Assembly: GCA_026770025.1 (NCBI GenBank)
Contig: JAMXDE010000026.1
Span: 248,001-312,000 of the forward strand
Length of the DNA stretch: 64,000 nucleotides
Reading direction: 5' to 3'
From: Craspedostauros australis
Lineage: Eukaryota; Bacillariophyta; Bacillariophyceae; Mastogloiales; Achnanthaceae
Under the pieces are notes generated by a model, which saw only the letters and a list, made by a program, of their open reading frames with translations, had not been told where the DNA came from and searched no databases. How positions within the stretch are numbered: position 1 is the stretch's first letter; each line of letters opens with the position of its first letter. A program made the translations under genes and the position numbers. Positions 17,281-61,511 of this stretch are shown piece by piece.

Positions 17281-18507
17281 TGTTTATAAACGATAGATCA
17301 GTGCGAGCCCGCGGCTCGGATTGTGAAGTACATGACAACAAGGCCGTACCAGCGTGGCTCAGCGATGAGCCAATCATCCACAAAGTCAATCCACATTGTG
17401 AAGTCAGCTATGAGTACTGCTTCAACGAGAATGACATCATCAATCCATCCGGCGACGCAGCTGAAATGGGAACCGAGGCCATCGATATCAAGATAGAAGC
17501 TGCCAAGAATGCAAACGACGCAGACCCCAACAAGAACGAAGACGTCTCCAACGACGAGATGAACAGCAGCGAGGAACAACAGAACGGGCATCTTCGATGA
17601 AGATAGCAGCGATGAATCAGAAAATGGATTCAACCCCGACGAGCGAGTCGCCTACCCAGCCGACGCCGCATTCGCACCGACTGCAGAGTTCAGAGGAACA
17701 AGAGTGATATACAGACTTGACATAACACCACGGGCCCCAGCAACAGCAGAGATCATGCAATGGCAGCTCATCCACGACGCTGTGATGACAGCAGGCATGC
17801 ATCTGTACCCAGACGATGCCAATGCGGGAGAGCGACACCTATGGGTGTGCGCGACAGCTACGATACTGTCCAAGAGCTTCCAATCAATCGAAGAGATTCT
17901 TGCCAACGGATCGGTCATCAACCGATTGTTGGGGGAATACAACAACGATTCAATTCCTGACATGGCCATGCACTACATCCTTGGAGGATGTATGCAGGTA
18001 CTCCTGCGCGAGCAACCACGAGTCACGTCATACGATCCGGTGACAGGAACTCATCAAGAAGACATGACCCCATCAGCGGTCAGAGAACCATTATTCGACC
18101 GCGTGAACCACGGCATGGACGACGGGAACGAGGATGCCAACGATGAAGACTACAATGATGACATAGCAGCGGCTGCCATGGAGCAGCTCCACGAGCTGAG
18201 CACCAAGCACAAAGACAAGGTCAACAAGGACACCTGGCTTGCTGACAGCGGAGCCTCGTGTCACATCGTGAACCCCGACGCCGTCTTCAACGTGCAGCAC
18301 ATCAAGTCCTTCATACAAGTGGGAGACAGCACGAAACTGGACTCTCCCACGATGGGATCCATTCGCTTGAAGGTCAAGCAACTAGACAAAACAAGTCACA
18401 TCATCCGACTTGACCATGTGAAGTACACGCCCAAGATATCAGTGAGCCTATTCTCAACAACAAGGCACTGTACAATGGCTACCAGATTGGGAACGACGAC
18501 ATTCTGA
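17280..18507 (+). pseudogene. Copia gag-like region and aspartic protease (frameshifted)
   Basis: An ATG at the LTR edge (17280) opens a 106-codon frame that stops at 17600. Acidic gag-like sequence continues in another frame from about 17587 to 18507. The protease signature WLADSGASCHIV lies near 18235-18270, with the catalytic Asp in DSG. This frame ends in TGA at 18505-18507, while related pol sequence has already resumed in a different frame from about 18460. One frameshift therefore lies inside each boundary. No CCHC zinc knuckle is evident. Confidence 0.8.
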
Positions 18508-33723: not shown

Positions 33724-34223
33724 ATGGTCAAGGAAAATGATTACAAGAGTTCCAACTCGTTGCTCAAGACGGCAACCACCAGACGCTTCGGAAAGGGGCG
33801 CTTGGGACGCGTGGCGATGCGGGCAAGGCCACCGCAGCCGCCGGTCAAGAGCGTTCAGGTGCAACAGGATGAATCCAAGATTTCCGACATGACAGATTCT
33901 GTGGAGGACGCCGTTCGCAAGACCACCGTGCGACAAGCATCAGGAACGGGATCGACGCTGTCGGCTCAGCGGACGGAGTTGTCCTCCTTCGCGCAGGCCA
34001 TCAACGTCTCACCGCAGCCCCAGGCATACGTGATGCCGAAGGCCAAGATCCCCTCCAAAGCGATCAAGCCGCAGAAGAAGTCGATGCAGATTCACGAAGG
34101 CATCAGCCTCATCGCACCGTCTCCAATGACCATCGACCGCGTTCAGGTGCAGATGGGACAGGAACACGCGGCCCCCGAGTCACGGCGCTACAAACTGCAA
34201 CATCAACAGCAGGAGCAGCAGCA

Positions 34224-34266
<43 letters not shown>

Positions 34267-37200
34267 GCAGCGACAACTGTGCCACACACAGATGCCAAGC
34301 TGCAGCAATCAAGCCTCGGCGTCACTTTGAAGCAACAGTCGCAGCAGCACCAACCGCCATTGGGCATGGCCAATGCAGCAGCGCGGCACAATCAAGGTGA
34401 AGGGTTTGAGACGGAGCTTCGCAATTTTGATGCCTCCACGCGAGAATCCGAACCAAAGGAGCAGCTGGATGCCCCGGCTTCCACCACCACCAACGCCGGG
34501 CTCGGCGGCTCGCAGAAGAAGAAGTCGTTGATGAAACGCGTTCTGGGAAAGATGAAGCCAAAGGCGATGAAGAAGAACAAGCTCCCTCCTGCCTCGGATG
34601 CTTCTATCGCGGCCCTGAAGGCCAAGCAGGAGGCAGGCCAGAAGCTCTCCCCGCAGGAAGCCCTCTTGGTTGCAAGGAGCGCCATGAAGAAATCCAAGCA
34701 AAAGCGTGCGCAGAACATTGTCGGTGGTGCGAACAACAACCCGGGATTCACCCCGGAAGTCCAATTCCCAGTGCTGGAGGTCCATACTACACGAAAGGAT
34801 GGCTCTACTGTGTCGGACCTCGACGCATCGCTCAACCTCTTCCCCATCGGACAAGTCTTGATGGGAGGCAAGAAGGAAGAGCAAGAAACCGACAGCGTGT
34901 CGACCCTCGGCACACCCAAGGCACTCGAAGGCGCCGAGACGAAGGTCATTCGACGGCCAAAGCTCAAAGTCAAACGCCCCGCAGGATTAAAGACGAACAA
35001 GTCCCGCGAATCCCAGAATGACCAAACTGCGACGGCCAACAACACCAACCAAACTACACAGCAGCAGCGGGAGCAGCGACCAAGAGTGGTGCAGCTTCAG
35101 AAGGGCCTGCAAGAAGAGGCCAGAGAGGAGAAGCAGACGGGCGAGAAAGCACAACGGCTCACGACGCGACGGTCCACCAGCCCAACCGACCTCAAGTCGC
35201 CTTTGGGAGGCGTTGGCACTTTTGCCACCGGTGCGGCTGTTTTGGCATCCCCCACCGCCGCCACTGCAATGACGTCTGCGGCGTCTGCTTCAGTCTCCCC
35301 CAAACAGCAAGGCAGAGATCATGGCGCAGACAAAAACCAGCTTCAGCGCGGCATGACGCAGGAGACAGGTACGACCGCCAACGATCCCATCCTCATTCCA
35401 GAACATGGTCGAGCAACGGCTGCTGGGACAGAAGCACAAGCCACCCAAGGCCACGGCATCGCCTCGCCACCGACTTTGGCGTCAGCCACAACCAAGAGCG
35501 ACGAAAGCTCCCGCGCGATCAAGCGCGACCCCACCGAGATCATCGATGGTGGGAGCGGCGGTGTTTATCCCAGAACTATCCGCATGGACCCATCCGCCGT
35601 TGGTCCATTCCACGAAAGCTCCAACGGATCAGCCATTGCATCAAGCCAACGCAACTATGGTCCCTCATCTGGACAATTCTCAGGTCAAGATGCAGCGGCC
35701 GGTTTGATGGGTGCAGCAGCATTTGCCGCAGGTGCTGCTTACAGCAACGGTCGTATGCTTCGCGACAACGAGATGACCCCTTCTGTCGCCGAATCTGCCG
35801 CATTCGAACTGCAGCTCACCAAGTCGAAGAACAATGGTGACAAGATCGACATCACTCGCCGCGGCGAGGTCGTCCAGTCAATTGCGCATCCAGCACTCAA
35901 GATGGCCAAGAGCAAGGCCAGCACAGCCGGTTCCGACACGTACTACAGCAGCGAAGCGTCGTCTTCGCTGCCAATACCTGAAGTGTTCTACGGCGTCCCA
36001 CAGATGCTACCGTCCATGTCCACGGCCGCCGTGAACGTTGGCAACGATGACAGCAATGGGAGCATGCCAGATGCCAAACCAAGAGCGTTGCAGACCGCCC
36101 CATCATCGGACGGCGATCGCTCCAGCCTCTCTCCCACGGCTGCATTCACGAAGGCGATCGATGCCGCAATCTTGGACGCTCAAACGCAGATGAAGAATCC
36201 CATGGAAGTTATCGATGGAGACGATGCATTGCATGCAAAGAATAAGGGCGGTGATGCCAATTCCGCATCTCAGATGAAGTCTGTCAAAGACAGCGGCACG
36301 ATCTATCCATCCGATCGGTCCATTGCCGATTCCAAGAGAGGTGCCACCATCAACGTCCCCAACTCAATGGAGGACACAACGAGCGATTTCAGCACCAGCC
36401 AGAAGAGCGCACCATCATCCTCCCGACACAAACAGGGATCCTCATCCGCAATCGTACCTGTTGCGGCTGCAGCGGCGGCTGCCGTTGCAGTGGGAGCCAC
36501 GACCTCTGCGATCATCGCAACTGCACAAGACAACCAGCACGATGGTCCACCAGGGGGGCAGCCGACCACTATCTCTGCGACGAGGACGATGGCTTCAGCT
36601 TCGACTGCCAAGTCTGCAATCACCTCATCTGTAGCAACGAGCACACACGATGCTACGGTGTCATCTTTACCATCGCAGCAGCAGCAGCGCAAGCAAGGGG
36701 CCAAACTGGGCCTTGTGTCGGCGACGTTGGGATTTGTCGGGACGATGTTTGGAAGAAAGGCTGCCGGCAATGATGCTTCCAAGTCAGAGAAGGGTGGGGA
36801 AACTACGGACGCTCAACCGGAGACCACCCACACTGTGCTCAAAGCAGCAACGTCAACCGCAACATCCGTCGACCAACGCAATGCCACGGCGGCAGGCAGC
36901 GGAGCCACTTCAGTCAAATCCACACCCTCCACTCAACACGCCACAGGCAGCGGATGCTCGGCGGCGTCGAGCTCCGTCCGAGTCGGAGAGAACCAAACCC
37001 GAAACAACCCTGCCATTGTGGCACTGTCCAGGAAAGAGGCGGAAGGCTCGGTATCTGTCATCCCTGCACCCACTTCGGTCAGAAAGATGCGTGGTAAGCA
37101 GGCGGTGGCGGCCTTTGGTGCAATTGCTGCCTCTCAGTCGATGCCAACGTTCTACAACAATTCGCTTGGCAAGGAACCACCATCCAGCATTGGACAAAGC

Positions 37201-40200
37201 AAGAATGCGAGTGCCGGCGTCGAAAAGAGCACCATCTCAAGCATTCACAGCAATCATGGTCAGACCACATCCATGGACGTCACGGATCGCGTCTCCAATC
37301 AGCGACGCGACAACAGCATGATGCAGGTCCGAATCGCGTCGCCAACAGCCTCTGCAACAGGCATCGAGCTTCTAGCGGGAGCCTACGTTGCGAACCGTGT
37401 GCTTGCTCCAAACCAACGGCAATGGGCGCAAGCAGCACGTTCCGCATCCTTGTCTTCTGGGTCCGAGGCCGACCAGCAGTCGAACGACCAACAGCAGGCC
37501 GAGAAATTGGCACGAAATGCCGAACCCCCAGCTGTGACCATGACGCAAGCTACCGACAGCGGAGAACAGACCGACAACATCGAAGTGCGGGCCGTTTCGG
37601 TCATAGATGAAGGATCGCAAAAGTCAGTCCGCTTCAACGAATCAGACTCGTCCAGCACGCAACAATTCCACGAACACCACCGATCAAGCGTGATGACAGG
37701 AGCCAGCTCGTCACACAGGCCTACATGGTGCAACGACACGCTGTCAAGCGGGTCGGTATACTACGACGATTCGACGTACTCGAAGGGAGAGTCACGCTCC
37801 AACCGTTCCAATGCCAGCACCAGCGACGGTAACTTCATTTCTGGGGCCGTGGTCGGAGCAGCCGCAATCGGCGCAGCAGCGGCTGTGGCAGCAGCAGCTG
37901 CATCATCTTCCAACACACGAGACAGATCATCATCCATCGGTGGAACAGCAACGGAAACATTGCAGAATGTCGGTGGCAGCAAGCAGTCGCGTCCGTCGGC
38001 AGAGAGCAGCGCAAGCGGAACATCCAGCCTGGCATCCAGCGATGTCTACACGAATCGTTCCGAAGGTGTCAAGAATGGCGAGGTCCGTGCCGTCGACCTC
38101 TCTTCTTCGACATCATCTGACTACGAGGCGAAGATTGCAGCAATGATTCGCTCGCAGATGCAGAGAGAAGGCATCGAACCTCTCACAGAGACCAGCAGCC
38201 CTCCTCCGGCTCCTCTCGAAGACATCATGAACCTTGCTGCGGTCAAACTGGCTGCTGGTAGTTCATACGAAACCAGCAACAAGGACGAATCTGCCAGCAA
38301 GGACGCGTGTCAACCGGGATCTGAAAAGCAAGACCTGATCGCCGGTGCAGCCAACCCAGTGATAGTCGGCCACCTCGTGGAAACCGTACGTTCATCCGAT
38401 GACATCCCAGTCGTCCAGGGCATGGACGTTCTCATGCCTGCGCGAGGAATGAACGGCGGTCAATCCACAGCCTCCGAATTCACCGTGTCCGAAAATGAAC
38501 GGTCAGTGACATCTGGTGCAGCTTCCACCAGGAAGTTGTTTTCCAGCTCTGCGGAGAACGAACGCCCTTCGTCGTTCAATGAGTCCGTCTTGAACAGCCT
38601 GTTGGACTCTGACTCGGAAAAGGTTGGGGCGCTGGTCGCGCACGAAGACCAATCGAGCCAACCCACAACGCAGAGCGATCGCGGCTTCGGGAAAGATGAC
38701 AGTAGCAACAAGGATGACGAAGCCAACGCATTGAAAACCACCGCAGCTGTTGGCGTGGCTGCAGCAGTCATTACGGCGGCATCTGTGGCAGCTGCAGCTG
38801 CAGCTGCAGCCAAACCCACGACCACTACCACAGCCACAGCCACAGCCAAACCCAACGTCACAGCTGATGGCAGCCCTGCAGTCAGCGTGGCGACGAGCGC
38901 AAGCGCCAAATCGAACCCTGTCGATGGTAGCTGCACCGACAACGCGTCTGCGGTCTCAACAAACGATGGTACCGACGCCGTTCAAGATGCATCGGCAAGT
39001 GTTTCGACTGGTCACATCGAGCGTAACTCATCCCACAAGTCGGTCAGCACAGAGAAGTCGTCATCGGACGATGTCACCAAGAACGCCCGGACTGGAGTAG
39101 CCACAGGTGCAGCAGCTGTCCTTGGGGTTGGCGCAGCGACCATGACCAAGTCTTTGATGAATGCAGAAAAGGATTGCGACAATGCTGATGTTGGTGGTGC
39201 TCTGGCTGAACATGACCCAATTGATGTCACCGACCACGGAAGCCATGGTGGTGTGTCACCTGGGAATTCCCCCATCGAGCAACAGCCCCCAGCAGAGAGC
39301 GCCTCCCGCTCGCGAAATGTGGAAGAGATCATAGTGCTCGACGACGAAGATGACCACTGCTACGGTGACAACGAGGGTAAAGATGATCACCAGCAGAATC
39401 TACCATCGCAGAGTCATTCCGATGGCGTCATCGTTATCAGCGACTCCATGGAGGAGAAGCATTCGTACGAGGATCCATGTGGAGACGACGCCCTTCCATC
39501 ACGCGATTCGGCACAGAGCACTGGCACCGACAAGTCCACCAGCAACCCAGCTGGTGCAGCACCAGTCATCGACCTCGTGAACTACGACAGCACAAGCTTT
39601 GAGGTGTACGATGGTGAGAGCGGCGATGTCATTGTGTGCCACGAGATGGATCCCTATGAAGTCGTGGACAACCCGGCCCAATCCGCGACGGCCGCAGCCA
39701 CAAGCTCACAGGCAAAACAAGGCCCAGTGGTGTCTGAGGAGAGCAAAGGTCAGCAGAAGGCGGGCATCACCTCATCACAGCTGTTGGCCCCGGCTGTTGC
39801 ATCGTTGGCCACCATTGGGGTTCTCAGCACCATGGGACGCGCAAGAGACAACGCGCAAACGAAAGAAGCCGACGCCAGTACCAAGAAGTCTGCACAAACA
39901 AGCATAATTTCGGAGACAGAATCTGCATCTGCATCTGCGGTGCCCACTCCACAAGAAGAGATCAGCGCAAGGACTCGATCATCTTCAGCACAAGATGATC
40001 CCAGTCAGGTAGTGAAGTCTTCGTCAACACGCGATGGCAGCGAAGAGATGGACCCTTCTGCAGCGAAGGAGCAAAGCATCCAATCAATGCAAACAGGACA
40101 GGAGGCCAAGCGAAACGAATGCGAAGATCATGGCAAGGAGGACGCGACAATCAACGAAGAGGCGTCCAATGGCGACGCACCCAAGAGACAGGAAGTCCAA

Positions 40201-43200
40201 TCTGCTCCATCTAGCAAGCCCGAAGAACTGCCACCTACGCGAGCCATGGAACGTGAGATCATTTCCGAATCAGAACAGCAAGGGGCAGCGACTGACGAGA
40301 ACAAGACAGGCAGCGCCGACACTGTCGCGAAGACGATTGTGGCAGCTGCAGTCGTTGGCATCGCTGGTATCGCAGGAGCAGCAGCCATGTCCTCCAAAAG
40401 GGCATCCAATGGGGATGAGGACGAGGAAGATGAAGATGAAGATGAAGCCAGTGACAAGGCCGAAGAAGCTGTCGGTGAGACGCAGCAGAAGACAGACGCG
40501 ACGACGTCAACACCCGAAGCGCACACGGCAGTAAGATCCGAACAGATGGAAGCCGACGAACACTTGAGAGCCATGTCCAATCCTACCTCCAAATCAAGCA
40601 GCACCATCCATGCACCGTCTTCGTCTGACCGCATGGAAGTGGACACGATCGTGGATGACGAAATCGTGGATGACCACGTTCCCGTTGTGAACTCGTTTGG
40701 AGTCATGGAGCCATCGCACAGCATGAAGTCCGACGGTGCGAAAAACAGCGCGTCTTCTCCAAGAAGTACCAACACCCGGACCATCGCAGCGGTCACCGCC
40801 ATTGCAGCTGCCGCAGCCGCAGCCGTGGCTGCATCTGGCCCAGCGCATGAAGGCAACGTTGACGCATCAGAGCATGAGGAAGACGAGCCAACCGCCTCGA
40901 AGTCCCACACAGCCTCCGCCTCAAGCGGAGACAGCAGCGATGTGCAAACTTTCGACAGCCCCAACGCTCTCGACTCGGAGCAGGACGGCATCGAAATATC
41001 GCTGTCCCAAGATCTTGTGCGAAGGCAGGACTATTGGCCAGTAAACGCAACTGGTCTTGCGATGCAGCAGCGGAGCGAGGCAATTGACCCTCCACAAGAT
41101 GTGTCCAACGTAGGTGTATCCTATTCATCGAGCTCTCCGTCCGTGCCACCATCAGACCCGTCGGGTTCATCTCAACTGTCGCAGCTCTTGCAGTCCTCCG
41201 CGTCGTCGCAGCCATCACAATCCGTGGGGATTTCAGCAGCATCTGCAACGTCCAAACCATCCGCAGGCGCGGACCCGCCTTCCGCTGCATCTCGTGCTGA
41301 TGTTGGACGTGCGGCCACTGCGGTGGCAGCCGCTGGTCTGGTGGTATCAGCAGCAGCAGCAGTAGTAGCAGCAACTGCCAGCAAACGGGGATTGACCTCT
41401 TCATCCAGTGATTCTTTCAACACTGCCGTCGGCTCACATCAACAACAGCAACAGCAAACGCAACAACAGCGACAGCTGCGGTCGATCTCCCGTGATCCGC
41501 TGCCATCTTCCAGCTTGGAAGGCGAAGGTGCGGCGCCGCCAGCGTCGTCATCCCGACGCGCATCCGCAGAAGTGAACGATGCCAGGTCCATTGATCGTGT
41601 TTCAAAGAAGGCATCCGCAGAATCGCAATCGATCCATGACACCACAAAATCGAACGCAGCAGTTGCCTCCAACGAAGCGCACGACATCAGCCGAGGAACT
41701 GGGCGTTCAAAAAACGAAGGGGCCGCCGACGATGACCAGTCTGTTGCAAGCAAGCAATCTTACGCATCGAGAGCATCCGCTGGAGGCAAGTCGGTGTCAT
41801 CCAGAGCCACGACACGAAGTGCTCGATCCCGAAGCAGCAGAATGAGCAAGCCCACCCCCGAAGACATGCGCTCAACGCATTCTCGTGCACGAAAGCCGAA
41901 ACCCGAAGCATCGGTGGTGTCCAACACAAGAGGCATCGACACGATCAAGGAGAACATGGTGATCCAAGTCGCCGCCGCCACTGTCGGAGTTGCAGCTGCC
42001 ACAGCCGTCATTGCAGCAAGCGGCCGACGGGATGACGCAAGTGCACAGACCGAAAGCCGGTCAAAATCGCGATCACTCTCGCAAGCCCAATCTGGACATC
42101 TCGCAGCTACAGGAATCCCGGTGCTTGACACGGTCCACGTGGGCAGCAGTGACATCGACCAAACGATCGAGCTAATTTTGTCCGATGAACAGACAGCCAA
42201 GGACAGCAAGGGCAGCAATGGCGATGGACTCACAACGATGCTGACATCTGCCTCGACCGGAGAGAATGGAAGCAAGTCTGCCAGTGCGAGTCGCAGCCAA
42301 CAAGTGGGATCTGCCATCGGGCAACGTCACATCCCCGGAATGGGATTTGCAGCCGGTAGCCTGGTGTCTGGGAGCAGAAGCTACACGAGTGCCATCCAAG
42401 TGAACAAGACAAACTCCAGCATGTCACGACAGCATTCGCAAGCCCAACGGGACCGAGTAGGCATGATGAGCCGGACGTGGTCCTTGTCCAACATGACAGG
42501 GACCAAGAGCAATCTGAAATCATCTGTCAGCGGCAAAGACAGCAACACGACCGAAGGCAACTGCCAGGACGGAAACGAGCACGGAGACAAGAACGAGAAC
42601 ACAAGCACCTCGCGTCTGGGACGAGGTCTGGCTCTTGTTACAGTCGCTGCAGCCGTGCCTATGATGGCGCACAATCATCAGCAGTCTCAACATGACCGTT
42701 CTCACAACCAGCGCACAGTGGCCAGCAACCCAGGCACCAGTCACAACATGCACTCTGCCGGTACCGAAAGAGCACAAACTGACGCCAATGCGAATGCTGC
42801 GCACACTACGCGAGCTGCTGCGGATATCAGTGGAGGCTCCACCGCGACGCGGCCACTTGGCACACAGACTTTCAGCAACGACGCTGATCCTCAAGGCACC
42901 AACGGAATCAGTAACGACGGTGTCGACGATTCTGGGACGAATCCATACAGCCCGACGAGAGCCATGTTACGATCCATGAATTCCGATGACTTCATACCCA
43001 GCAACGGCATGGCCGGGCACATGCTCGACGACGACGATGCGTACTGGGATACTCTGTCAACCATTGCATCCACCAAGGACAAGAGCATGACCTCTGGCCT
43101 TCGCAACGGCCGACGGCATCGATCTACTCCCGCACCAGCTCCCATTCCAAGCGAGATTACCACGAAGGATGCACAGCCCGGTAGCACCTCGGCAGGCGTT

Positions 43201-46200
43201 GCAGCTGTGGCGGTAGCGGCAGCCGCAGCCACCGCAGCGGTGACAGCAGCCGTTTCATCGTCAGCAACATCAGCATCATCCGAGGGTGAGTCTGGAACAG
43301 CCGCGACCATCCCGGTGCAAACAAAGTCCCACGATGCATCTTTGCGAACGAAGAGCACTGACAGAGCCAACAGTGACAAGATGCGAGGAGTGAGCCACAC
43401 TGACGACATCAACCAAAGCAGCGCATTGGAACAATCTCGCGACACTCAGCTGCAATCAACAGAGCGCGAACCATCCGTGTCCGTATCTGCAGCGGCAACA
43501 ACGACGACTCTGGGCTTGGTGACAGGAGGTGCGGCAATCGCAGCTGCGATGGCATTGAGATCATCGTCGTCAGGCGGCGACAATCAGTCAAACAAGGGCG
43601 ACGATCTTGCCAAGGAAATCACGAAGACTTGGTCGTCATCGCTTGATCCGAGTCGCTCCAAGTCGAAATCTCTCCATCCATCGATTTCGTATGCCACAGC
43701 TGAAACGGATGCGAAGTCAGGGTGGAAATCGTCCGCCATCCATGCATCAACGAGCAGCCACAGTCAAGCCAGCATCTCCAATCACATCAAAGCGCAATCA
43801 TCAGCGGCTTCTGCTTCACAATACAGCACCAACGCGTATCCCGCATTGGTCACTGGCGCCAAATCCATGCCCATTGCTGGAGTGGATTCGAGATCGACAG
43901 AGGGGCAGCAGCATGGTGAAACTTCATCCTGGCCGCGCTCAGGAACGACGAATATCCACGCGGATTCCTTGCGAGCGGACACCGGTTCGCGTCCCACCGT
44001 CGGCAATGGTGTACGAAGGCGATTTGGACGAGGAGACGAGGACAGAACAGCTGTTGAGCTACAGACGTCTGAGACTTTTGTGTCGGCTGCCTCATCAGTT
44101 TCGGGAGAAGCGGTGGGGGCTTCATCTGGAATGGTGTTGGGAGCTTCTGCTGCAGCTGCCGTGACCGCGGGCTCCATCGCTGCTGCCCGCCCTAAATTCC
44201 GCCAAATGAAGGTGATCCCGTTGCCAATGGCAGTTCCTGTCATTGGGTCGTCGCCTTCCACAAGCGACGCAAGCAACGCCGCGAGCGAGGACAATGTACT
44301 ACATGCACCACCACTGAAATCGGATGACAGCAGCGATGCCAATAAAGGGGTGCTTCAAGAACGTGTCGGTCAGGTTGATAATGATGATGATGATGATGAT
44401 GCACGTCCTGACAACGTGAAGGCAGTGGAGCTCACCATGGCCAAAATCGACTCGTTGATCGACACCATCGGAACGAACGTGATTGACGATGTCAGCGATG
44501 TCGACGATGGTAGGAGCACTTCGTCGTTGTCCTACAGTCTCTCGAAGTACGCCGCAAGCGTCATGACAGCTCCGTCATCGTCAGATGCTGGGGGCAGCGA
44601 GGGTGCACTATCCAAGAGAAGCAACTCCGCCCACGCAATGCGCATCCTGAACAGCTGCCTCTCCCGGGATCCGTCTGGTGCCGTCTCTTCTGAGGCAAGT
44701 TCGAGCGGCGAAGAACGTAGCAAGACGGAGTTGAGGAAGAGTGCCTCGGCCCATTCGCAATCTTCACTGGTTCACAACATGAGCGGAAGCGCCGGCTCTG
44801 CTCTCGATGGTTCAAGGGCCACAGACGGGTCTTCAACGATCATGCCAACAGTGTCGCAGCTCAATATGGGACATGGATCCAGGAGCATTGGCAGCTCGCA
44901 GAAGTCCATTATGTCGAGCTCCACACAAGCGCCGTCCGCCACTTCTGCAGTGGATCGAGCAGTTCATGAAACACCAAGCGCAACCAACGATGCCGCCGAT
45001 GGGATGGATCTCCAGCATCACCAAGAGCAGCAGCAACAGCAGCAGCTGCTGCAGGGTCCAGTTCCTTCTTCTGCACTTGCAGGAGTGAACCTGGACAACC
45101 AGTACCTCGTCGATGAATCGGTACAGGGATCGGACAGCTTTGGGACGGAAGACAACAGCGCTCTGTTGTTGACGGTGACGAGATCGGACATGGAGGAGAA
45201 TTCGTCCTCCGCCAAGGCTGCAAGCGAAGGTGGGAGCGCTGATGGGAAAGCACGCAGCTCAGACCACGAGGAAGCTACCCGCACAATGGACCAGCAGCCA
45301 TTCCATGCCGACGAAGACCAAGCGCCACAACAGCCAGGTCAAGCCATCGATGGCGCTGAGCGAACGCCGTTCAATCCTCTCGTTGTTGGTGCAGTTGCAA
45401 CTGCGGCAGCTAGTGCAGCGGGTGCTGCCGCAATGATTCTTTCGAGACCACGGGATGCCTCGGAAGACGGTGGTGACGAAAACACTTCCGGTGAGATTCG
45501 CCAAAGAGAAGTCATGTGGGGATACGAGGAGGTTTTCGATGCCGAAAGTCGTCGCAGTCAAACATCATCCACAAGGAGCAGAGCATCACTCCCCGCTTCG
45601 GCATCCTCCACAGCATCTCAAGCAGGAATGGATTATCCGCCGATGTACGCACACTCCCACGTTCATCGTGATCATCTCAATCAACACCAGCAGCAGGACT
45701 ACGGCGTGTATCAGAACAGAGGCCACTTTGCGTTCCACCAACCCGCAGAACGTTCGTTGATCGATCCTCCTGAGGAAACGAACGAGGTCATCGATCTGTC
45801 GCATGCGTCGTGGGATGGTGCGGTCATGGTGGAGGATGTGATGGAATTCGGAAGCACCATGGCAGCAGCAGGCATGAGCTCCGAAGACCAAGTGTCCTCA
45901 TCGGCGTCCAGCTCTTCCCGAAGCGACGTCGACACACTAGCCGCGATGATCAGAAAGCGGCAGCTCGCAACCAGTAGTCAAGCCGGCGCAAGCGCCAACG
46001 AGAACGAGAACGAGAACGACCCACCGGGTGAATCGGCCGAGGGCCGACGCGAAGCTTCGTTGTACGAAGTCTTGCTTGGTACTTTGGGAGTTGCAGGGTC
46101 AGCTGCTTTCATTGCTGGGAGGAGTCCACAGGGACCACCTTCCGAGCCAGCCAAGCAGGACGCTCCCGCCGATTGCGATCAAATCGAGCTACAGGCGGCT

Positions 46201-48789
46201 CGCACAAATTCAGCCGAAGAACAACCATCAGGCGCGTCACAGAGCTCGTCCGATGCTAGCTCTGCCAATTGGCAGAGGGAGCTTGGATCCAACCTGGCGT
46301 CTTCAACGAGACACGGGCCTCAAGACGAGGAACCACGGCAGCAGCAACAGCATCAACCGCAGCATCAATCACAACAACAGCCGCATTTCAAGGTCATGAG
46401 AGACCCATCCATCAACAACTTGATCCACAAGATGGACAGAATGAACGAATCTTCGCAACGGCACAACGCCAACGAGCCCAGAAGTTCGGATAGCAACGCA
46501 GTCGTCGGCCCATCCCATCTACGCGGCACTCAGCAGGAATCTCAGCTAAGAACCGTTCCCAATACCAACCGTGCGGTCGTCCATGATGACAACAGCAGCA
46601 TCATGAATGAAACCACGGCGAACCGGGATTTGCTCGCCACCATGGCACTCACAGAGCAAGAGCTAGATGATCTGTCTCCCGAGGAAGAAGAGAGGCTGAT
46701 TTCACGCACGCTGGAACTGTCGAAGGCATTGCTGGCATCGATGAACACCAATCCGACCTTCGATTCAGCGTCGGATGAGGACATGGTGCGTTCATTGGCG
46801 TCTCGTGCCGCACAGCAAGAAGGTGATGCAAGCGCCTCATTCAGACAGTCAGTCGATCCAGAATCGGCTGCAGCATCGCGCTACGGAGATGACGAAAGTA
46901 CGGCAAGATCTTTGGCCACTGTGACCAGGTCCAGGGCGAGTCGAGCACCCCGTCCTGAACACTTCACTGGAGCAGCCCTCGTGGAACAAGAGCGAAGCGT
47001 CGCGAATTCGCCGAACGACGAAGGCACGATCTCGACAGCCCCGACACCCCAACTGTCCAACGCAAACAACGAGACCATTGTCCCACTCTCTGTGTCTTTC
47101 CACCAGCGCCAGATGCTCGCCGCGAAGAGCAAGGGCTTGAAGCTGGAGGCATCTGCAAGCGTTGCAGATTCATCGTCGATGCCCGGGGATGAGGACGAGA
47201 ACGAGGACGAGCACGAGGATGACAGCAATGCAAGCAGCAGTCAACATCCACAGATGGTACCAGCCGCACAGCGACCAGGCTCTCAGAGCAGGAGTTCGTC
47301 GCACACACATGTGAGCGATCTTAGCCCCGAAACACCGATCGAGTTGGATCGTCTGCTCGCGCAGTTCCAGCTCCTCACCAGACAGCTAGTCGATGCTCCC
47401 GAAGTGCCGAGGGAGGACTACGACAACACCAGCGGAAGCGTCGCGAGTCGGCAGGATGCGAACGAACGCAGCAAGCGCACTGGTGATAAGCCCATTGCGG
47501 GCATTGCTCCGAGAATCGGTCGAGCTGCTGAAACTCAGTCGATGATGGATGCAGTGTCAACATACCAGAGGTTGGAGCAGCTTGAATCGTCCGCAAGGCC
47601 GGTGCAGTTTGGTTCGTCAGCTGCCCATCACCAGACCGCCAACCGCAATCCGAGCGTGACTTCTGAGCAGCAACAGGCAATGGAGCACACCGGCGTTGCC
47701 CCGCCATTGCAGCAAATACCAACGCAGCAGCTGCAACAGCAGCCTCAAGAGAGGTTCGCCACTCGTCTGCAACGGCCATCTATCCGAGAAGCAGGCGGAC
47801 GAATTGGCCATGCCGCGCAGCCAACCAAAAACACAACCATGGTGGGACCGCCCGGAGACAACGACATGGACAGCAGTGCTGGCCGTGTGCAGAGACTCCG
47901 CCAACAGAGACAGAATGCGCTGGACAGGCTCCGGGCATCAAAGACCACAAGTGGCCGTGACTTGTCGACAAATGCAAGCGGTGATGCTGTTCCACTTTCT
48001 GGAAGCGATCATAGTCTTCGTCAAGTACGCTCGGAGGTGGGTTCTGCTGCCGCTCCATCACCGCGGGCTCCCCGACAGCGCACGCCCCGTGCATTTCAGG
48101 ACCGAGATCTTCCTCATTCCTTCTCAGAGTCGCAGATGTACTCACAGGCATACACGAGAGGTACTCGGCAGCATGAGAGACAGCATCAACAGTATCAACA
48201 GTATCCACGGCAGCAGCAGCAGCAGCAGCAGCAACCATTCCCGGCCCTGCAGAATGCACGCCGTGCTCCTCAGCCGATACAGAGAGTGCAGCCACGCCAA
48301 CGTGATCGATTCTCACAATACCAAATCACCAACACGCTGTCATCGGACACGAACTTGGCGGCCGGATCGTCTGCTGCCAATCCAGTCGATCTCGATCATT
48401 TTTCGGATCAGTTCGATAGCGACACCAACACGGATGCAAGTGAGAGCGTTGGCATGACCACCCAGCAGGCCAACATGGATACCATGGACATGCACGTGAG
48501 GATGTCGGAGTCATCAGATTCCGAGACGACCACGCCATCGACGAAGGCTCGCGATTTGCAGAAGCAGATCCAAGACGTTCTCCAGGCATCGAAGGAGCTG
48601 AAATCGACGCAGGAGAAGCTAGGAAGCGAACTCACATCGTTCAAGAGCCGCTACCACCAACGATCCAGCCATCTGGAAGGCAAAGCCATGAGGATGGTGG
48701 GCGAAGTCCAATCGCTTCGTGGCGGAAGCAACAGCCAAAGCAGCGGCTTCATGGCTTCCTCTTCGTCGCAGTCTCATCAGGCTCCATAA
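33724..48789 (+). CDS. Giant 5021-residue protein with repeated Ala-rich hydrophobic segments
   Basis: One uninterrupted exon of 15,066 bases starts in gccaagATGg and ends with TAA at 48787. There is no signal peptide; the N-terminus is basic. Most of the chain is Ser/Ala/Thr/Asp/Gln-rich and likely disordered. At least 15 hydrophobic stretches of about 15-27 residues, built of Ala, Val, Gly and Ile, recur every 100-400 residues (for example near 36454, 37837, 38738, 39094, 39780, 40330, 40785, 41310, 41955, 43190, 43490, 44115, 45385 and 46065). Many are followed by a short basic or polar stop such as SSKRA, ASGRRD or LSRPRD. SUMO-interaction-like motifs cluster at residues 1866-1972, with another at 4022-4025. 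PolyQ lies near residues 160-181. Residues ~4942-4995 form a coiled coil. I recognise no family. The Ala segments could be membrane helices or self-association elements. Confidence 0.85.
34199..34267 (+). repeat. CAG trinucleotide run encoding polyglutamine
   Basis: CAG/CAA codons interrupted by a few GAG codons, inside the giant gene (residues about 160-181). The remainder of the gene has shorter Gln runs near 45025-45055 and 48210-48236. Confidence 0.9.
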
Positions 48790-53467: not shown

Positions 53468-56400
53468 CTACATCTGGACGTCCATCTTCGTTGCGTATTC
53501 GACTGCTGCCACCGTCGCTTCATCCATGGCTTGCTGTGGCGCAGCAGACAGCATGGACGGCTCCATCATGTCTCCAGAGCCTTGTTCTGCCGTGCCAAGT
53601 ACATCAACTGGTGCTGGTTGCGATTCAAATGGCCCATGAGCCTGCGTCTCATCGCCAGCGGGCAGAAACGTATTGCCTGTTGCAAGCTGTGCAAGTGCGT
53701 GTGCATGCTCGTTTTCTTGTGTCTGATGCTGCTCGTGTTGCTGGACTGGAAGTTGGTGCAGCTGTTGCTGCTGATGTGCTTGCTGCTGCTGAATGTGCCC
53801 ATGAGCATGGATCTCCGTCTGCTGTGGTTCAGCAGGCGCGATCACAGCGAAGGCGACTTGAGGTTGTGGTTCCACTGCCGCTGCAGGTGGTTGTTGCTGC
53901 TGTTGCTGCTGCTGTTGTTGCTGCTGTGCCTGGTCATGTACATGCACCATTTGTGCTTCGTTCACGGCATGCGCCTGCAGCGTGTCTTTCGGTTGCAAGA
54001 GTACATGTTGTTGTTGCTGCTGTTGCTGCTGTTGGTCCTGTTGCTGCTCCTGATGTTGCTGTTGCTCCGTGTGTTGCTGCTTCGATGGTCGTGGAAGTGC
54101 ATGTAACCCGATGCGTGCCAGTGCTTCCTCATGCCGGCGATCAGACCACTCTCGGAGAGACCAAACGAAGCCGAGCTCCTCAAGCTGTCGGATTCGGTCA
54201 ACCGACATGGACGAAGAGTTGCCGGTGGCTTGTCCGGATGCATTTGCCGCTCCTGCCTCGTTTGCCCTCATGAAGGAGCGGTATTGCGACCGTTGCGAGG
54301 CAACCCACATCCCTAGCTCAGGATTGCGATGGTAACGTGCCGGCACAAGACAGTTGCCATTCTCCGAAATGTATGCCTTGAGTTCCTCAAGACGCTGCGC
54401 CCAGGATACCCCCGTGGCATCCCTGGATCGAATCGTCCAGGTGAAACCCAGCTTGTCGAGCATTTCGATGCGTTCGGGAGTGAGCGGGGACCCCTTCTTC
54501 CCTTTTGATGGCGCCACCGCACCATTTTTTGCCTCGCTGGCCTTTTTCTTCAAGCTCTTGTATTGCTGACGCTGCGCACTGACCCAGATGCCCAGTCGAC
54601 GATTGGTAGTGTACCGCGCCGGAACATTGCAGTGTCCATGCTTGGCTTGATATGCTGTGGTTGGGAAGAGCAGAGGTTCGATTCGATTCGATTCCAAGCA
54701 TGATCACAATCGCGACAATGCGTGAAGTAAGACGTGCAATTGATGTCCAAGCATAGAAGGAATCAATGGTATCGGATCGGAGCAAAACAAAGTTGTGGAA
54801 GAACGCGTTGAGGAATGTATGTATATACACACACATAGAGAGAGAGAGATAAACAAGCTTACAAGGTGCAAACAAGAAGCATTCAAGCACAGACCATCCT
54901 GCAAGAGTGTGGTGGTGGTATGATCAACACGATGCTGAATATACGTCAATCCCCAACTTGCCATCACTGCCAATACGACAACATGACACGACACAACTGC
55001 CGCCACATAACAGCAACATACCTTTCAGCTCATCGTAGTGCTTTTGCCAATCGTCTCGGACAGACCAGACGAATCCCAGTTGATGCAGCCGTGCGATCCT
55101 GGCATCTGTTAGGCGACCGATCAGAGGCTTGGGACTCAGGGACGAGCGTTTGCCGGAGAACGGGTGCACTGGGACGGTCGGGATGACGTACTCCTTGCCT
55201 TCTGCTTCCAGCCGTTTCTTGAGCTTCTTGAATTGCACCCGCTGCGTATCTACCCATGTCCCAAGTTTTGAGTTCTCCTTGCAACGCTTCGGGACCATGC
55301 AGTTTCCGTATTTGGCTTTGTACTCCTGTAGAAGCACGAACATCCGATCCCATTGGTCGTCATATGAATTGCGAGTGATGCGACCTCCTGGGATGCCCTT
55401 TTCGCCCTCACGTGCCGACCACACGAAACCAACCTCTTCCAGACGCTTCCTGCGTTCGTCGGTGAGTCGATATGCAATCTCCTCACCTTCAGTGGGTTGC
55501 TGCTGTTGTGATTGCAGTAGCTGTGTGCCTTCTTCTGCCGCAGGCGCGGCAGTTAGCGGCGTGGACCCCGATGCTTCCATCAATTCTTGTTGTGCGAGCT
55601 GGTCCTGCTCCTGCAATTCGCGTTGTTGTTGTTGATGCAGCTGCTGTGAGCCATCGATCACGTCTCCCGCTGCCGTTGCGAGATCTGCTTGTGCAAGTTC
55701 TGTCTCTCCGGTTGATGGCTGCGGAGATGGTGAAAGCGGAGACGGGACGATGTCATTTGTTTGCTGCTCCCCCATGGCAGCATCCGGTACACCTGCACCT
55801 GCAACTGCGCCGGTGGCAGTGGTTTGAGAAGAAGCCGGTGCTGGGTTGTTCGTCCCCGCCATCAGCTTGCGATACTGGACCCTCTGCGTATGAACCCATG
55901 TTCCCAGCTTCAAATCCGGAGGATATCGCTTCGGTACGACACAATGGCCTGTGCGTGACTTGAAATTCAGCAACCGAGCAAACATCTGATCCCATTGTTT
56001 GTCGTAGAATCGCTTCATCTTGTGCTTGACCTTCCATTCGAAGCCAATAGATTCCAAGCGGCGGACGCGCTCGGCCGTGAGACGCAGGTTGGATGATTTT
56101 CCTTTGGCGGGGCCATTTTGTGGCACGAGGACGTTGCCGTTGTTGATTCCGATCGCTGGGTTTACTGAATTGACGGTGGGATACGTTGTGGTTTGACCAA
56201 CATCGGTGGTTGCCAAAGCGTCCATGCCACTGGTACCGGTGGCGTTAACGTTGGCATCAGGCAGCAGCATCTCCACCCCACCGACGTTCGTTGCAGGTGC
56301 TGGTGCAGTGCCCACGGCCTCAGCTGGCTCAATGGAAGCGGCTGCGCCGTTTGCGGTGATCATCGGGCTGGCGGAATTGCTTGCACGCAGTAACTTGGTG

Positions 56401-59400
56401 TACCCATACCGTTGAGTCTCCACCCACTGTGTTTTTGTTGTTTTCGTGTTGGTTGGTTTTGTTGGTTTGTTGAGAGGACGCGAGAGACATCAACGTCGAG
56501 AGAAACGTGGCATGGGACACTTGTCCGCCAAGTTAGACTTTTGCATGGATTGCTGAGCACACTCATATCGATTCAGGTGGTCGGTTTGTCAATGCACGGT
56601 ACGATACTGTGCTCAAAATAGACATCCCGTCGCCTAACTCCGCAAAAGCACAGCACCACAAAACCCACAACACCCATCACATACTGCTGACGTTCAGCAA
56701 CTCACCTTGCCAAGCTTGAGATTCTCCTCGAAGCGGCTGGGGACGAGACAGTCTCCGTGCTTCGCCTTGTATTCGCAGAGCTGACGGAACATGTCGTCCC
56801 AATGATCCTCGATCCTCTTCGTACGCAATGACCAAACAAAGCCAAGGGCATCGAGCCGTTCCTTGCGCTCCTTGGTGAGTTTTCGTGGGATTGGCATCAT
56901 GGTTGGTGTCGGTTGGTACATCCCATGATGCATCGTGGCCTGCATGCCATTCATTACCAGCGGTGCTTCTGTTGGCATGGCACTTGCCTGCTGATTGAGA
57001 TGAACCTGCTGGAGCTGAATTTCGCTAGATGGTTGTCCTGGCACGAGCTGATCGCTTGTAATACCGGGCTGTGCCGGTTGCCCATCGTCCGCAAGAGACA
57101 GAATCTGGCTTTGGTCGTCTTGTGCAACGCCTGCCTCATCGATTGTATGTTGTGGATCGGGCGATGTGGTGGGTGACTGGACGACACTGCCTGCTCCGTT
57201 GGCTTCGTCCAGCAGTTGTTGCTCCGGCGTCTCCATGGGTTGTCCAGGAACGAATTGCAGTTGCTGTTGCTGCGGGTGTTGCTGTTGAAAATGCTGCTGT
57301 TGCTGTTGCTGGAGCTCGCGCTTGTTTTCTCGGTTCCACAAGATGCGTTGCTGTTCCACCCAGGAGGCAAGCTTCGTGTCCTGGTCGTACTTGCGAGGCA
57401 CAAGGCAATGGCCGTGTTGTTTATGAAATTTCATGAGACGCTGGTAGAAATCTTCCCACTGTGCCTCCTGATGTCGCAACCGTTTTGCTTGCGAGTCATC
57501 GATGCGTGCTGCCACGATCGTACCGTTGTGAAGGAGATGGCTGTGGCTATTGTTGTTGCTATTCATCACACCGTTGACGCTGCCAAACCCATGATCGGCC
57601 ACAGGGACGTTGACAGCGACAGCCATTGCAACTGGACCAACAGTTTGTGGGCTGTTGTGCCCTGTGACACGGTGTGCTGAATGCGTGGAATTTTCGGTTA
57701 TGACGGTGTTGGGAGGCATCAACGGTGCGACCACCGCCATCGATGCATTATAGGCAACAGGTGCTGCCACATCCGCAGCAGCAGCATGATGCACCTGATT
57801 GACGTGCGCGTGGTTGTCATGTCCATTGGTGTTGTTCGCGTTGCCGAAGAACATATCAACATGTTGTTGAGGTTGTTGGTGTTGTTGTTGTTGGCCTGGC
57901 TGCACTTGCTGATGTTGCACTGGGTGTTGCACTTGCTGATGTTGCACTGGGTGTTGCACTTGGTGGTGTGACACTTGCGGTTGGTGCGATGATGGTTCCT
58001 GCACAAATCTATCTGTGGCATGGGGTGGGTAGCAAGCCGCTGCTGCTGCAGCAGCTGCTGCCGCCGCGGCTGCACCTGCCGTTTGTCCAGAGGATGCAGC
58101 CGCTTTGTTCGATTGCTTTCGGATGTGCTTGGCGGACCAGCAAAATCCAATGTCGTGCAATTTCATGAGACGGTCACCATTGAGGCGCTTGTTGGGATGG
58201 ATAACCTCTTCGCCCGTCGAAGGGTCCACGCTGCGTTCCAATCGCTTGTATTGGACGCGCTGTGCAGGTCGTGCGTGTTTGCGTGTGCATGATGGGTGTG
58301 TTGTTGATGACACGTGAGGGATGAGGGGATGAGTGCCAAAACGTGGAGCCGAAGTGATGCAGAACAAAGTGTGGACAACAAAGGTCAGACGGGGTGACGT
58401 TGTGTCACGTTGGTTGATCCGATCAGGTTACTGCTCAAATGCAGGAGATTCAGAGATGATGCAGCAATCCACGTGTCGCAATATGGCAAGTATTGGGATC
58501 GTGGAAGACTCACCTGCGTCTCCACCCAGGTCCCCAGCTTGGTGTCGGCCTGGTATCTCTTGGGGACGAGGCAATCACCAAATCTCGCCTTGTAGTCCAT
58601 CAACCGATTGAACATGGCATCCCATTGCTCATTGTTAATCTTCTTGGTCGGTGGCAGGTCCATCAGATGGTGGCTGTGACGGAGCTGCTGCTGTTGCATC
58701 TGAAGTTGCTGCTGCTGCTGCTGCTGCTGTTGTTGCAGGTTCTGTTGTTGTTGTTGTGCTTGCTGGTGATGTGGCTGGACAGTGACATAGTGATGGGCCA
58801 CTTGTTGCTGCGGCTGTGTTGGCTGGTGGTGGTGCGGTTGTTGAATGTGCAGTTGTGACGTGTCCTGTGCGACTGTGACAGGCTGGTGGTACGCAGGTTG
58901 ATGGTGGTATTCTTGCCCTTGCACCTGTGGTTGTACTTCTACCTGCATTTGCTCTTGTGATTGTTGTTGTGGCTGCATCTGTTGCTGTTGATGTTGCATC
59001 TGTTGATGCTGCTGATCCTGTGGATGCTGCAATTGGTTGATTTGCAAGTCGGCTTGGGCAGGAGGAGGCGCTGGTGGCGGCAAGTGCTGGACCTGTGCTT
59101 GCTGGTGCTGATGATGCTGTTGCTCCTGCGTGTGATGTTGCTGTGGATGATCTATTTGGGGTTGCTGGTCCTGCAACTGCTGCAGGTCCATCTCCAATTG
59201 CGCGTCTTCAGACTGGGCCTGCTGTTCAGGTTGTTGCTGTTGCTGTAACTGTTGATGCTGTAACTGTTGATGCTGTAACTGTTGATGCTGGTGTTCTTCG
59301 TGCTCCTGCACCATTGGAGGCACGTAGTCATTGGTGGCATCGTGGGTGTTTCCAAACGTATGAGCTTCGTAACGAGGACGTTTGGCATATGCGACACCTG

Positions 59401-60631
59401 TGGGCGTGTCCAATTGTGTGAGGCTATCCGCTTGATGCGTCGGTTGATGGTCCACAACTGCATGAGATGCTTGTGCACCATCAATACCAATGGTTTCTTC
59501 GAGTGTTCGTTTCCGGGATGTGCCATCGTTGTTGTTGTGGTTGTTTGTATCGATGGTGGTGATTCTGTTGGTGGGTATGGCCGCATCTTGAAAGTACTGA
59601 TCAGTCTGATGCGTTGCAGAGGCAGCCTCCAGTTGCTGTTGCAGTTGCGGTAGTTCTGTCACCTGAGTCTGCGGTTGTGGTTCGCCTTGCAGTCCTTGCT
59701 GGGGTTGAGGTTGTCCGCTTGTGCCGATGCCTGTGGGTCCATCCGTGCCGCCATCGCTGGAGTGCATGACTTGTTCTGCCATCCCATTTGTGCTCTGTGC
59801 AGAGACTTCGTCGGGGACCTCGTGGATGTTCTGCGGAGGATTCTGCTTGGGGAGGTCATGTTGCGTTTGTTGCATTCGCTCATGATGATGATGATGATAG
59901 GCCGCAGCAGTATCAGTGGCCATGCTCGGTTGCAGTGACCGGTCTTGAACTTGTTCTTGGTTGGTTTCGTTAGCTACATTGCTTGTCTCAACGGGAATGG
60001 TTGCTGCGGTTGCTTCTGCGGTTGTTCCATTCTCCACGCTGGGTGTTGCCGCAGTTGTCTGTGCTTCTGTTGGTGACACCATCTCCATGACGCCATTGGT
60101 AGCCACCGCCGCCGCTCCCACTGTGACCATGTCGGTCATGAATGGAGCCGTGTTGGATTGAGGAACGGTGGCATTGTCATCGCCTGGCGTAACCTGCTCG
60201 GATGTTGGGACGGGTTGCTCATCGGCTGTGGCTTGCAATGGCAGCAGCTGTGTGTCGTGCTGGTCTTGGCCGTCACGATGATGCGTCACACCGGCTGGTG
60301 CCGGGACGTTGCCTCCGACGTGGACGCCATTGTGGGGTTGCGCCTGTTGTTGCCCATGAGCTTGCACCTGATGATGCTGATGGTGCTGATGGTGCTGATG
60401 CTGGTGAGGTTGACCTTCATGGCTGATGAGATGAGCTACGGCTTCAGGTTGGGCCTGAGGTTGGGCCTGAGGTTGTTGATGTGCATGTTGGTGTGCAGCA
60501 TGGTTGTGTTGAGTTGGGTTGACTGCGGCGACGGTGACCGCGACGGCGTGGTGAGGATCCTGGTGTTTGTCTCTGTCAGTCGCAACGACAGACGCTGGAT
60601 CGGCACAAGGCGGTGGGAGGTGGCTGGTCAT
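53468..60631 (-). CDS. Seven-repeat helicase-associated (HA) domain protein with His/Gln-rich N-terminus
   Basis: Four exons (58514-60631, 56706-58259, 55022-56426, 53468-54654) give 2087 residues. All introns (254, 279 and 367 bp) are GT-AG and lie inside an HA repeat; joining completes the motif each time, as in WVETQ-RVQYKRL, LGK-WVETQ and DELK-AYQAKHG. The start is the first in-frame ATG (60629-60631). Residues 1-~660 are His/Gln/Thr-rich low complexity with polyQ. Seven HA domains (PF03457 type: W...Y....G.C.VP.....LG.WV..QR...) begin near residues 670, 973, 1193, 1368, 1582, 1682 and 1776. Each is followed by a LxxLGFxWS helix; an eighth partial one follows. HA domains occur beside bacterial helicases and are expanded without the helicase in diatoms, where nucleic-acid binding is presumed. 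The Gln-rich tail recalls transcription regulators (inference). Confidence 0.9.
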
Positions 60632-61511
60632 GGCGACGGCCCACAAGCCCGTGGGCTGAAAGCGAAGGAGGCGAGGCAGGGGCGGTGATGGTGACCCGCG
60701 AAGGAAACGGCAACTTCTTCCGATTGTTTGCTGTTGTTTGCTTGTCAGTTTCTTCCCAAACACACGCTCCGCGCGCAAGGCGGGAAATACCGCGGTGCAA
60801 GTGCGACTGTTTCTGTTTCCGCCCACGCAAACAGACACAAATTGCACGCTTGAACCATGTGAAAAACACGGAGAGCAGCAACTGCTCTCTGTTCCACGCG
60901 TGGTATCTCTCTGTCTCTGTACGTAATCGTGCCCAGTCCTCGTGTCGCCAGGTGCGCAACAAACAAAACAACACGCCAAGAAAGGCACCAAACGTGTTGT
61001 TTGTTCGATGGTGTGGCTGTCTTGCTCTCACATTTTTGACGCGACGTTGCCAAGAAGCCGTAGAAACAATACCGAACTGAACGTCGAGGCGAGTTCCTCA
61101 AGAACTTGTCCAAAAGTGTCAGAATTGCAGCCAAGAATCATGGCAGATGCATGTCGCAGCAGTGTCGCATCCATGCCACAGCGTGCACACTTCCTGCGTC
61201 ACACTTATGGTCCAATCAACTTTGAATACCCGGAAACGTTCTTTCTCCTGTGTCGATCCGGAAATGCAAAATGGAACATACGGAGGGACTAATAAATGCC
61301 TGCATGCGGTATGCAGAAGTACTGCAAAGTGTTACATGACCATCTGGGACAAAGAGAACTGTGTGACGAGGCAGGCTCTGTCGCAATGTTGGGGGTTGCG
61401 GTAATACGAAAGCGAATCGCCAAACAGGCTATCAATTGAGCTGTATCAGACGAAATAATAATTTGTGTGCCGCAGCTTTGAAACACGTTCCTTGCACTTG
61501 CGCGCACTTCG

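Follow-up and report, generated by a model that had tools for sequence, protein, structure and literature searches.

The question raised by this locus is twofold: what kind of gene is formed by an uninterrupted frame of 5021 codons, and how did about a quarter of this gene come to double as multi-copy transposon cargo? Positions are those of the window, which designates the whole 64-kb stretch of diatom DNA that was analyzed. With moderate confidence, we favor a joint reading in which the gene would encode a giant disordered protein and 3.6 kb of its sequence would have been captured by a Tc1/mariner-like element, gene conversion having occurred later.

A giant open reading frame

A previous reading of the sequence alone (the sequence-only reading) had proposed a single gene frame of 5021 codons. 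Inspection of the plus strand bore this out, since 33724–48789 contains no internal stop. The five remaining frames of the same interval contain 102 to 137 stops each, and the first ATG is preceded by an in-frame stop at position 33673, 51 bases upstream. Ser (15.2%), Ala (13.0%), Thr (7.4%), and Gln (6.9%) were prominent in the composition of the encoded protein.

33724..48789 (+): 5021-codon open reading frame, Ser/Ala/Thr/Gln-rich
34207..34271 (+): CAG tandem repeat, poly-Gln run in the giant gene

In a weak test of coding potential, the giant frame and the silicon transporter gene had codon usages correlated with a coefficient of 0.78, compared to 0.58 and 0.70 for the other two frames. 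A layout belonging to no known family had also been claimed, and the database searches agreed with this view: Pfam returned 0 families for both halves of the protein at E ≤ 0.1, and no PDB chain was matched by residues 2501–5021 at the same threshold. Relatives of residues 4101–5021 were not confirmed in viral contigs or in prokaryote genome contigs, and no disordered Ala-rich diatom protein was found in a literature search. We conclude that 33724–48789 is a real gene frame, devoid of relatives in the searches made.

Other features of the window were recorded. A silicon transporter gene is located at 10674–12410 (minus strand). Many more are present in the genome, which identifies it as that of a diatom. 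Genome-wide, 32 silicon transporter matches of near-full length (480 or more of the 513 model positions) were detected, including 28 without a stop; the family is very large compared to the 3–5 copies said to be typical (PMC10700740). Four successive open reading frames with helicase-associated (HA) domains are present at 53471–60991 (minus strand), and pieces of a Copia-like retrotransposon polyprotein at 17704–21266 (plus strand).

Part of the gene is present at other places of the genome

The 74.8-Mb genome was searched for sequences related to the giant gene. Residues 1–1500 produced 21 protein matches, consisting of the gene itself, three weak matches in the Gln-rich part, and 17 matches in residues 933–1500. 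Outside the captured region, residues 1–932 matched only themselves and the three weak Gln-rich sequences, and residues 4101–5021 matched only themselves. At the DNA level, a search with 36633–40225 returned 18 rows accounting for the gene, at least 11 other places (two of which come as three rows each), and two short matches of 58 and 70 bp.

36633..40225 (+): captured piece, 3593 bp, about residues 970–2167; transposon cargo at at least 11 other places
36548..36632 (+): 85 bp matched by the C8 copy only (alternative left junction)

The limits of the copies are sharp. Seven whole copies span the interval from position 36633 or 36634 to 40225. The right junction is common to the eight uninterrupted copies and the left junction to seven of them; the copy designated C8 extends back to 36548, thereby including 85 additional bp of the gene and defining a second left junction. 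Nested insertions interrupt copies C23b and C53, which nevertheless have the same start and end points as the whole copies, and C47 is partial. Beyond these limits, the elements match one another. In four elements, neither the left arm nor the inverted repeat had a match anywhere in the 64-kb window, and the right arms only had short, mostly repetitive matches located away from the junctions. Further, unrelated matches to the window were a copia-like stretch in C53 and 87 bp in C47. In these analyses, the copy alignment comprised eight of the 11 listed copies, C23b and C53 (nested insertions) and C47 (partial) being left out; element ends were read in seven of the 11, and the comparison of arms with the window concerned four of the 11.

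The carrier resembles a Tc1/mariner transposon

All seven elements that were measured are bounded by inverted repeats of 52–64 bp (about 55 bp) displaying 81–100% identity, with TA at both outer ends, as seen at occupied sites. The elements are 8.8–9.4 kb long, of which 3.6 kb correspond to the captured piece. On the opposite strand, an open frame of 697–894 residues (three elements listed) contains the motifs HMDEKW, QMDGAG, and NVKDD, the last two being separated by 38 or 39 residues (one copy, by eye). This frame would encode a DDD transposase, putatively of the Tc1/mariner superfamily. Pfam only proposed HTH_29 at an E value of 0.11, which is below the cut-off, a second Pfam search detected no family, and a PDB search with the transposase returned nothing relevant. 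The Tc1/mariner assignment therefore rests on the motifs and the TA ends.

The transposase core had at least 122 matches in the genome. The captured piece adjoins one of these in nine of the 11 listed copies (all but C2 and C23b), indicating that most of the places found do not carry the piece. Eight of the nine adjoining transposase cores are free of stops; the C8 core contains one.

An element devoid of the captured piece, C42, was considered as a clean empty acceptor. Its homology to C12, C14, C15, and C8 starts 41 bp to the right of the right junction, and that to C51 at 43 bp. The left part of C42 is different DNA, represented by 40 rows genome-wide, including 32 (C42 among them) at 98–100% identity, and its left inverted repeat was not found in the 12 kb that were read. 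The candidate was rejected since its whole left part, in which it differs from the capture-bearing elements, is other multi-copy DNA. Thus, no clean empty acceptor was found.

The region C42:306500-318500 is an observation in its own right, as it contains another type of cargo associated with this transposase family. The identity of 98–100% of 32 of the 40 rows to a 1062-bp stretch of C42 points to a very recent burst.

Comparison of C12 and C15 revealed identities of 85.0% in the transposase part, 92.6% in the cargo part, and 90.4% at the right end. The cargo part is more similar than the transposase part in this pair, which suggests that parts were moved between diverged backbones.

Proposed exchange between the gene and the C51 copy

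All 54 alleles exclusive to the gene and the C51 copy are located within positions 37626–39983 (P = 4 × 10–9 in comparison to the other informative sites).

37626..39983 (+): tract of the 54 alleles found only in the gene and C51; inferred ectopic gene conversion, gene to transposon

The distance between the gene and C51 is 2.5% within this tract and 5.7% outside of it. A single capture followed by evolution at similar rates is expected to result in equal distances. Under these assumptions, the unequal distances would require a later exchange. Inside the tract, C51 differs from the other copies by 7.95%, compared to 6.2% for deep copy pairs (difference of 1.75, SE 0.49). Outside the tract, the corresponding values are 5.06% and 5.82%. 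C51 is thus more remote from the copies inside the tract but not outside, which favors the gene as the donor. About 2.4 kb of the C51 copy thus look as if they had been replaced by gene sequence, presumably by conversion.

Decay of the copies and evolution of the gene

Changes were classified as nonsynonymous (N) or synonymous (S) by placing single changes in the codon of the gene, which is an approximation. For the uninterrupted copies other than C51, N accounted for 154 of the 228 private changes (156.9 expected) and for 94 of the 135 shared changes (95.0 expected). The captured copies thus appear to evolve in a near-neutral manner, judging from these counts. Changes private to C51 displayed an excess of N (37 of 44 versus 30.6 expected; 23 of 28 versus 19.7 and 14 of 16 versus 10.9 in the two subsets), and sites with a mixed pattern displayed a deficit (44 of 75 versus 52.2 expected, P = 0.03).

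Each of the eight aligned copies contains one to four stops in its own triplets (13 distinct stops), compared to none in the gene. Frame-shifting indels, one to three per copy, are present in seven of the eight; C51 has none, and the gene has no frame break. Read from the left junction, the frame of the gene closes after 78 to 622 of 1197 codons in the eight copies that were read. The upstream ATG of the element was out of the frame of the gene in all seven copies having the motif (C23b lacked the motif; C8, C47, and C53 were left out). The idea that the captured piece serves the transposon as coding sequence was rejected on the basis of the near-neutral N:S ratio and of the out-of-frame position of the upstream ATG.

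Gene-side changes comprised 52 N and 28 S, transposon-side changes 295 N and 134 S. Changes private to the gene amounted to 18 N and 8 S. These were divided into 9 N of 11 inside positions 37626–39983 (7.5 expected) and 9 N of 15 outside (11.1 expected, P = 0.14). Changes common to the gene and C51 included 34 N of 54 (38.8 expected, P = 0.10). Purifying selection on the captured part of the protein was not evident in these gene-side counts. In the absence of clear constraint on gene-side substitutions, the sequence seems to be fast-changing although its frame is kept. The decayed copies provide a built-in, near-neutral yardstick for the evolution of an orphan giant protein.

Direction of the transfer

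The captured part was very probably taken up by the mariner-like element from the gene. We infer this gene-to-transposon direction from several observations that have to be weighed against the reverse transfer, i.e. acquisition of residues 970–2167 by the gene from the transposon. With the conversion tract set aside, the gene does not behave as an outgroup (5.37% versus 5.82% for deep copy pairs) but falls within the range of divergence of the copies, which speaks for the reverse transfer. The codon usage of the captured part also fits its two flanks less well (r of 0.86 and 0.89) than the flanks fit each other (0.93), and there is a precedent since genes can acquire exons from Pack-TYPE elements (PMC8903248). 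In spite of this, reverse transfer appears highly improbable. For the four elements compared, no match to the left arm or to the inverted repeat was found in the window, and none to the right arm at the junctions. Similar hydrophobic segments continue on either side of the captured piece in the protein. Of the transposase places found, which number at least 122, only nine have the piece, and all eight aligned copies are broken. In the favored gene-to-transposon scheme, a Tc1/mariner-like element bearing a transposase would have taken up a 3.6-kb stretch of the gene between its inverted repeats. The cargo would then have reached at least 11 further places and would be decaying there as non-coding DNA. 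The cargo would since have exchanged sequence with the gene through gene conversion.

A broader generalization is speculative, and we regard it as unlikely. The mariner-like family might be a modular carrier, the right arm of which keeps the transposase while the left arm acts as a swappable bay for several kilobases of host coding DNA. Cargo would be passed between diverged sublineages and alleles traded with the parent gene by gene conversion, which would supply variation to a giant disordered gene that evolves fast.

Ala-rich hydrophobic segments of the protein

Hydrophobic segments were counted as 19-residue Kyte-Doolittle peaks at three cut-offs and compared to 200 residue shuffles and to shuffles preserving homopolymer runs. 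At a cut-off of ≥1.4, 13 segments were detected, compared to means of 0.98 (maximum 4) for residue shuffles and 1.9 (maximum 8) for run-preserving shuffles. The numbers of segments were 16 at ≥1.2 (means of 2.2 and 4.3, respectively) and 20 at ≥1.0 (means of 5.2 and 8.4). The 13 strong segments are rich in Ala, Val, and Gly, and have a mean hydropathy of 1.4–2.2 over 19 residues.

36460..36516 (+): Ala-rich hydrophobic segment, residues 913–931, hydropathy peak
37846..37902 (+): hydrophobic segment, residues 1375–1393, within the captured piece, hydropathy peak
38743..38799 (+): hydrophobic segment, residues 1674–1692, within the captured piece, hydropathy peak
39781..39837 (+): hydrophobic segment, residues 2020–2038, within the captured piece, hydropathy peak
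40333..40389 (+): hydrophobic segment, residues 2204–2222, low-confidence predicted helix
40783..40839 (+): hydrophobic segment, residues 2354–2372, low-confidence predicted helix
41311..41367 (+): hydrophobic segment, residues 2530–2548, low-confidence predicted helix
41956..42012 (+): hydrophobic segment, residues 2745–2763, hydropathy peak
43198..43254 (+): hydrophobic segment, residues 3159–3177, hydropathy peak
43501..43557 (+): hydrophobic segment, residues 3260–3278, hydropathy peak
44131..44187 (+): hydrophobic segment, residues 3470–3488, hydropathy peak
45382..45438 (+): hydrophobic segment, residues 3887–3905, hydropathy peak
46060..46116 (+): hydrophobic segment, residues 4113–4131, hydropathy peak

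The segments described in the sequence-only reading are therefore real, their number exceeding chance with both types of shuffles; the estimate of 15–20 holds at the two laxer cut-offs but not at the strictest. Ala codons in or just around the segments detected at ≥1.2 are mixed (63 GCA, 33 GCT, 28 GCC, and 23 GCG), unlike the CAG run, indicating that the segments are not fresh triplet expansions. A basic motif closing the segments was recovered in part, as the first charge on the C-terminal side is Lys or Arg in 14 of 20 segments (44% expected, P = 0.024). However, the nearest charge on the N-terminal side is also basic in 12 of 20 segments (P = 0.18). Among 33 charge-free stretches used as controls, 19 likewise end in Lys or Arg. 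The motif is accordingly weak and not a signature. The proposal of degenerate tandem modules was not upheld: 300-residue pieces compared with one another by BLASTP revealed no internal repeat at E ≤ 0.01, and no column reached 90% identity among 14 aligned segments, which only have their Ala composition in common. Since the segments share composition but neither aligned positions nor internal repeats, tandem modules are unsupported, and a tandem-repeat scaffold protein was rejected as repeats are not detectable by self-comparison.

Structure predictions were obtained for two regions. For residues 2150–2600 (AlphaFold, single sequence, mean pLDDT of 47.4), helices were predicted over all three Ala-rich segments of the region, and also over three further stretches that are not Ala-rich segments. 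For residues 4740–5021 (mean pLDDT of 57.9), a single helix of 61 residues was predicted, mostly with pLDDT above 90; this helix probably forms a coiled coil. A cluster of SUMO-interaction-like motifs was located in the captured part. Over the whole protein, the four patterns had 5, 3, 2, and 2 matches, compared to shuffle means of 4.5, 1.2, 0.5, and 0.15. These counts indicate a local cluster rather than a clear enrichment of the whole protein.

48541..48723 (+): C-terminal 61-residue helix, residues 4940–5000, AlphaFold
39328..39633 (+): SUMO-interaction-like motif cluster, residues 1869–1970, three pattern matches, one by eye

Our tentative view, held at somewhat under even chances and based on composition and on mostly low-confidence models, is that the protein is a disordered scaffold with sticky hydrophobic helices. 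It would be soluble and mostly disordered, with 13–20 Ala/Val/Gly-rich segments, probably helical, acting as sticky points on the chain, and would end with the coiled-coil-like helix. The segments may drive condensation or filament assembly. Two other interpretations were weighed against this scaffold. In a multi-pass membrane protein, the Ala-rich segments would cross or dip into the membrane and anchor the disordered loops. The hydropathy of the 13 strong segments and the basic C-terminal side of 14 of 20 segments are in keeping with this possibility, but the approximate insertion energy was positive for all 20 segments (according to our own simplified scale, devoid of moment and length terms, a weak test), the net charge of the loops does not alternate, control charge-free stretches also end in basic residues, and no signal-peptide-like N-terminus was seen by eye. 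Alternating membrane topology was rejected in view of the loop charges, the membrane dips previously proposed found no backing on this scale, and membrane insertion of the segments appears marginal; a multi-pass protein is thus very unlikely. Less easily set aside, although we doubt it, is the possibility that the segments arose by drift in composition, in a disordered protein that evolves fast, and lack any function of their own. The segments have neither shared positions nor internal homology, and the gene-side N:S ratio in the captured part is not clearly under neutral, in keeping with drift. Against it, the number of segments is far over that of shuffles and their Ala codons are mixed. Within the captured part, six segments have undergone few gene-side changes (3 N and 2 S), which look conservative, at low power.

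Taken as a whole, the sequence-only reading stands for the giant frame, the excess of segments, and the lack of a family match, and is weakened for the tandem modules and the membrane dips. The protein offers a testable case of hydrophobic segments occurring within a disordered chain without clear membrane signals.

Comparison with known systems

Polyalanine-tract proteins and sticker-and-spacer scaffold proteins contain Ala-rich helices in a disordered chain. The resemblance of the giant protein to these is one of layout. Its segments also include Val, Ile, and Gly, and their hydrophobicity exceeds that of pure Ala tracts.

In plants, DNA transposons are said to capture genes commonly (PMC2572040). 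Pack-TYPE elements, including the Pack-Mariner elements of rice and maize, are described as non-autonomous carriers of gene fragments (PMC8903248). As in these elements, a host coding fragment is flanked by the inverted repeats of a DNA transposon and has been copied around the genome, mariner being among the superfamilies involved (PMC8903248). Unlike in the non-autonomous Pack-TYPE elements, the captured pieces adjoin a putative transposase in nine of the 11 listed cases, with a stop-free core in eight of the nine; the cargo of 3.6 kb and the diatom host are further differences. Closer in this respect is Turmoil-1 of C. elegans, a case of transduplication in which a Harbinger transposon encodes its own transposase, contains fragments of 205 and 131 bp inside its repeats and exists as one complete copy and eight fragments (PMC2572040). 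Both elements are transposase-bearing carriers of host coding fragments, those of Turmoil-1 being said not to be under purifying selection (PMC2572040), but the diatom element is mariner-like rather than Harbinger, has a cargo of 3.6 kb, and is present at at least 11 places.

The TA ends, the inverted repeats, and the putative D-D-D spacing of 38/39 liken the diatom element to the IS630-Tc1-mariner group, in a DD39D-like form (PMC7386202, PMC8533490). Its length of 8.8–9.4 kb and the lack of a Pfam match above the cut-off distinguish it from typical Tc1/mariner elements, for which 1.3–2.5 kb is given as a typical, not strictly defining, length (PMC8533490). A literature search for gene capture by diatom or algal transposons returned nothing fitting by title and start of abstract, which does not prove absence from print. 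The diatom element combines a transposase frame, a build that appears Tc1/mariner-like, and a 3.6-kb cargo. Its cargo stems from a single parent gene that has been identified and is present at at least 11 places, with a mosaic suggesting later exchange with that parent.
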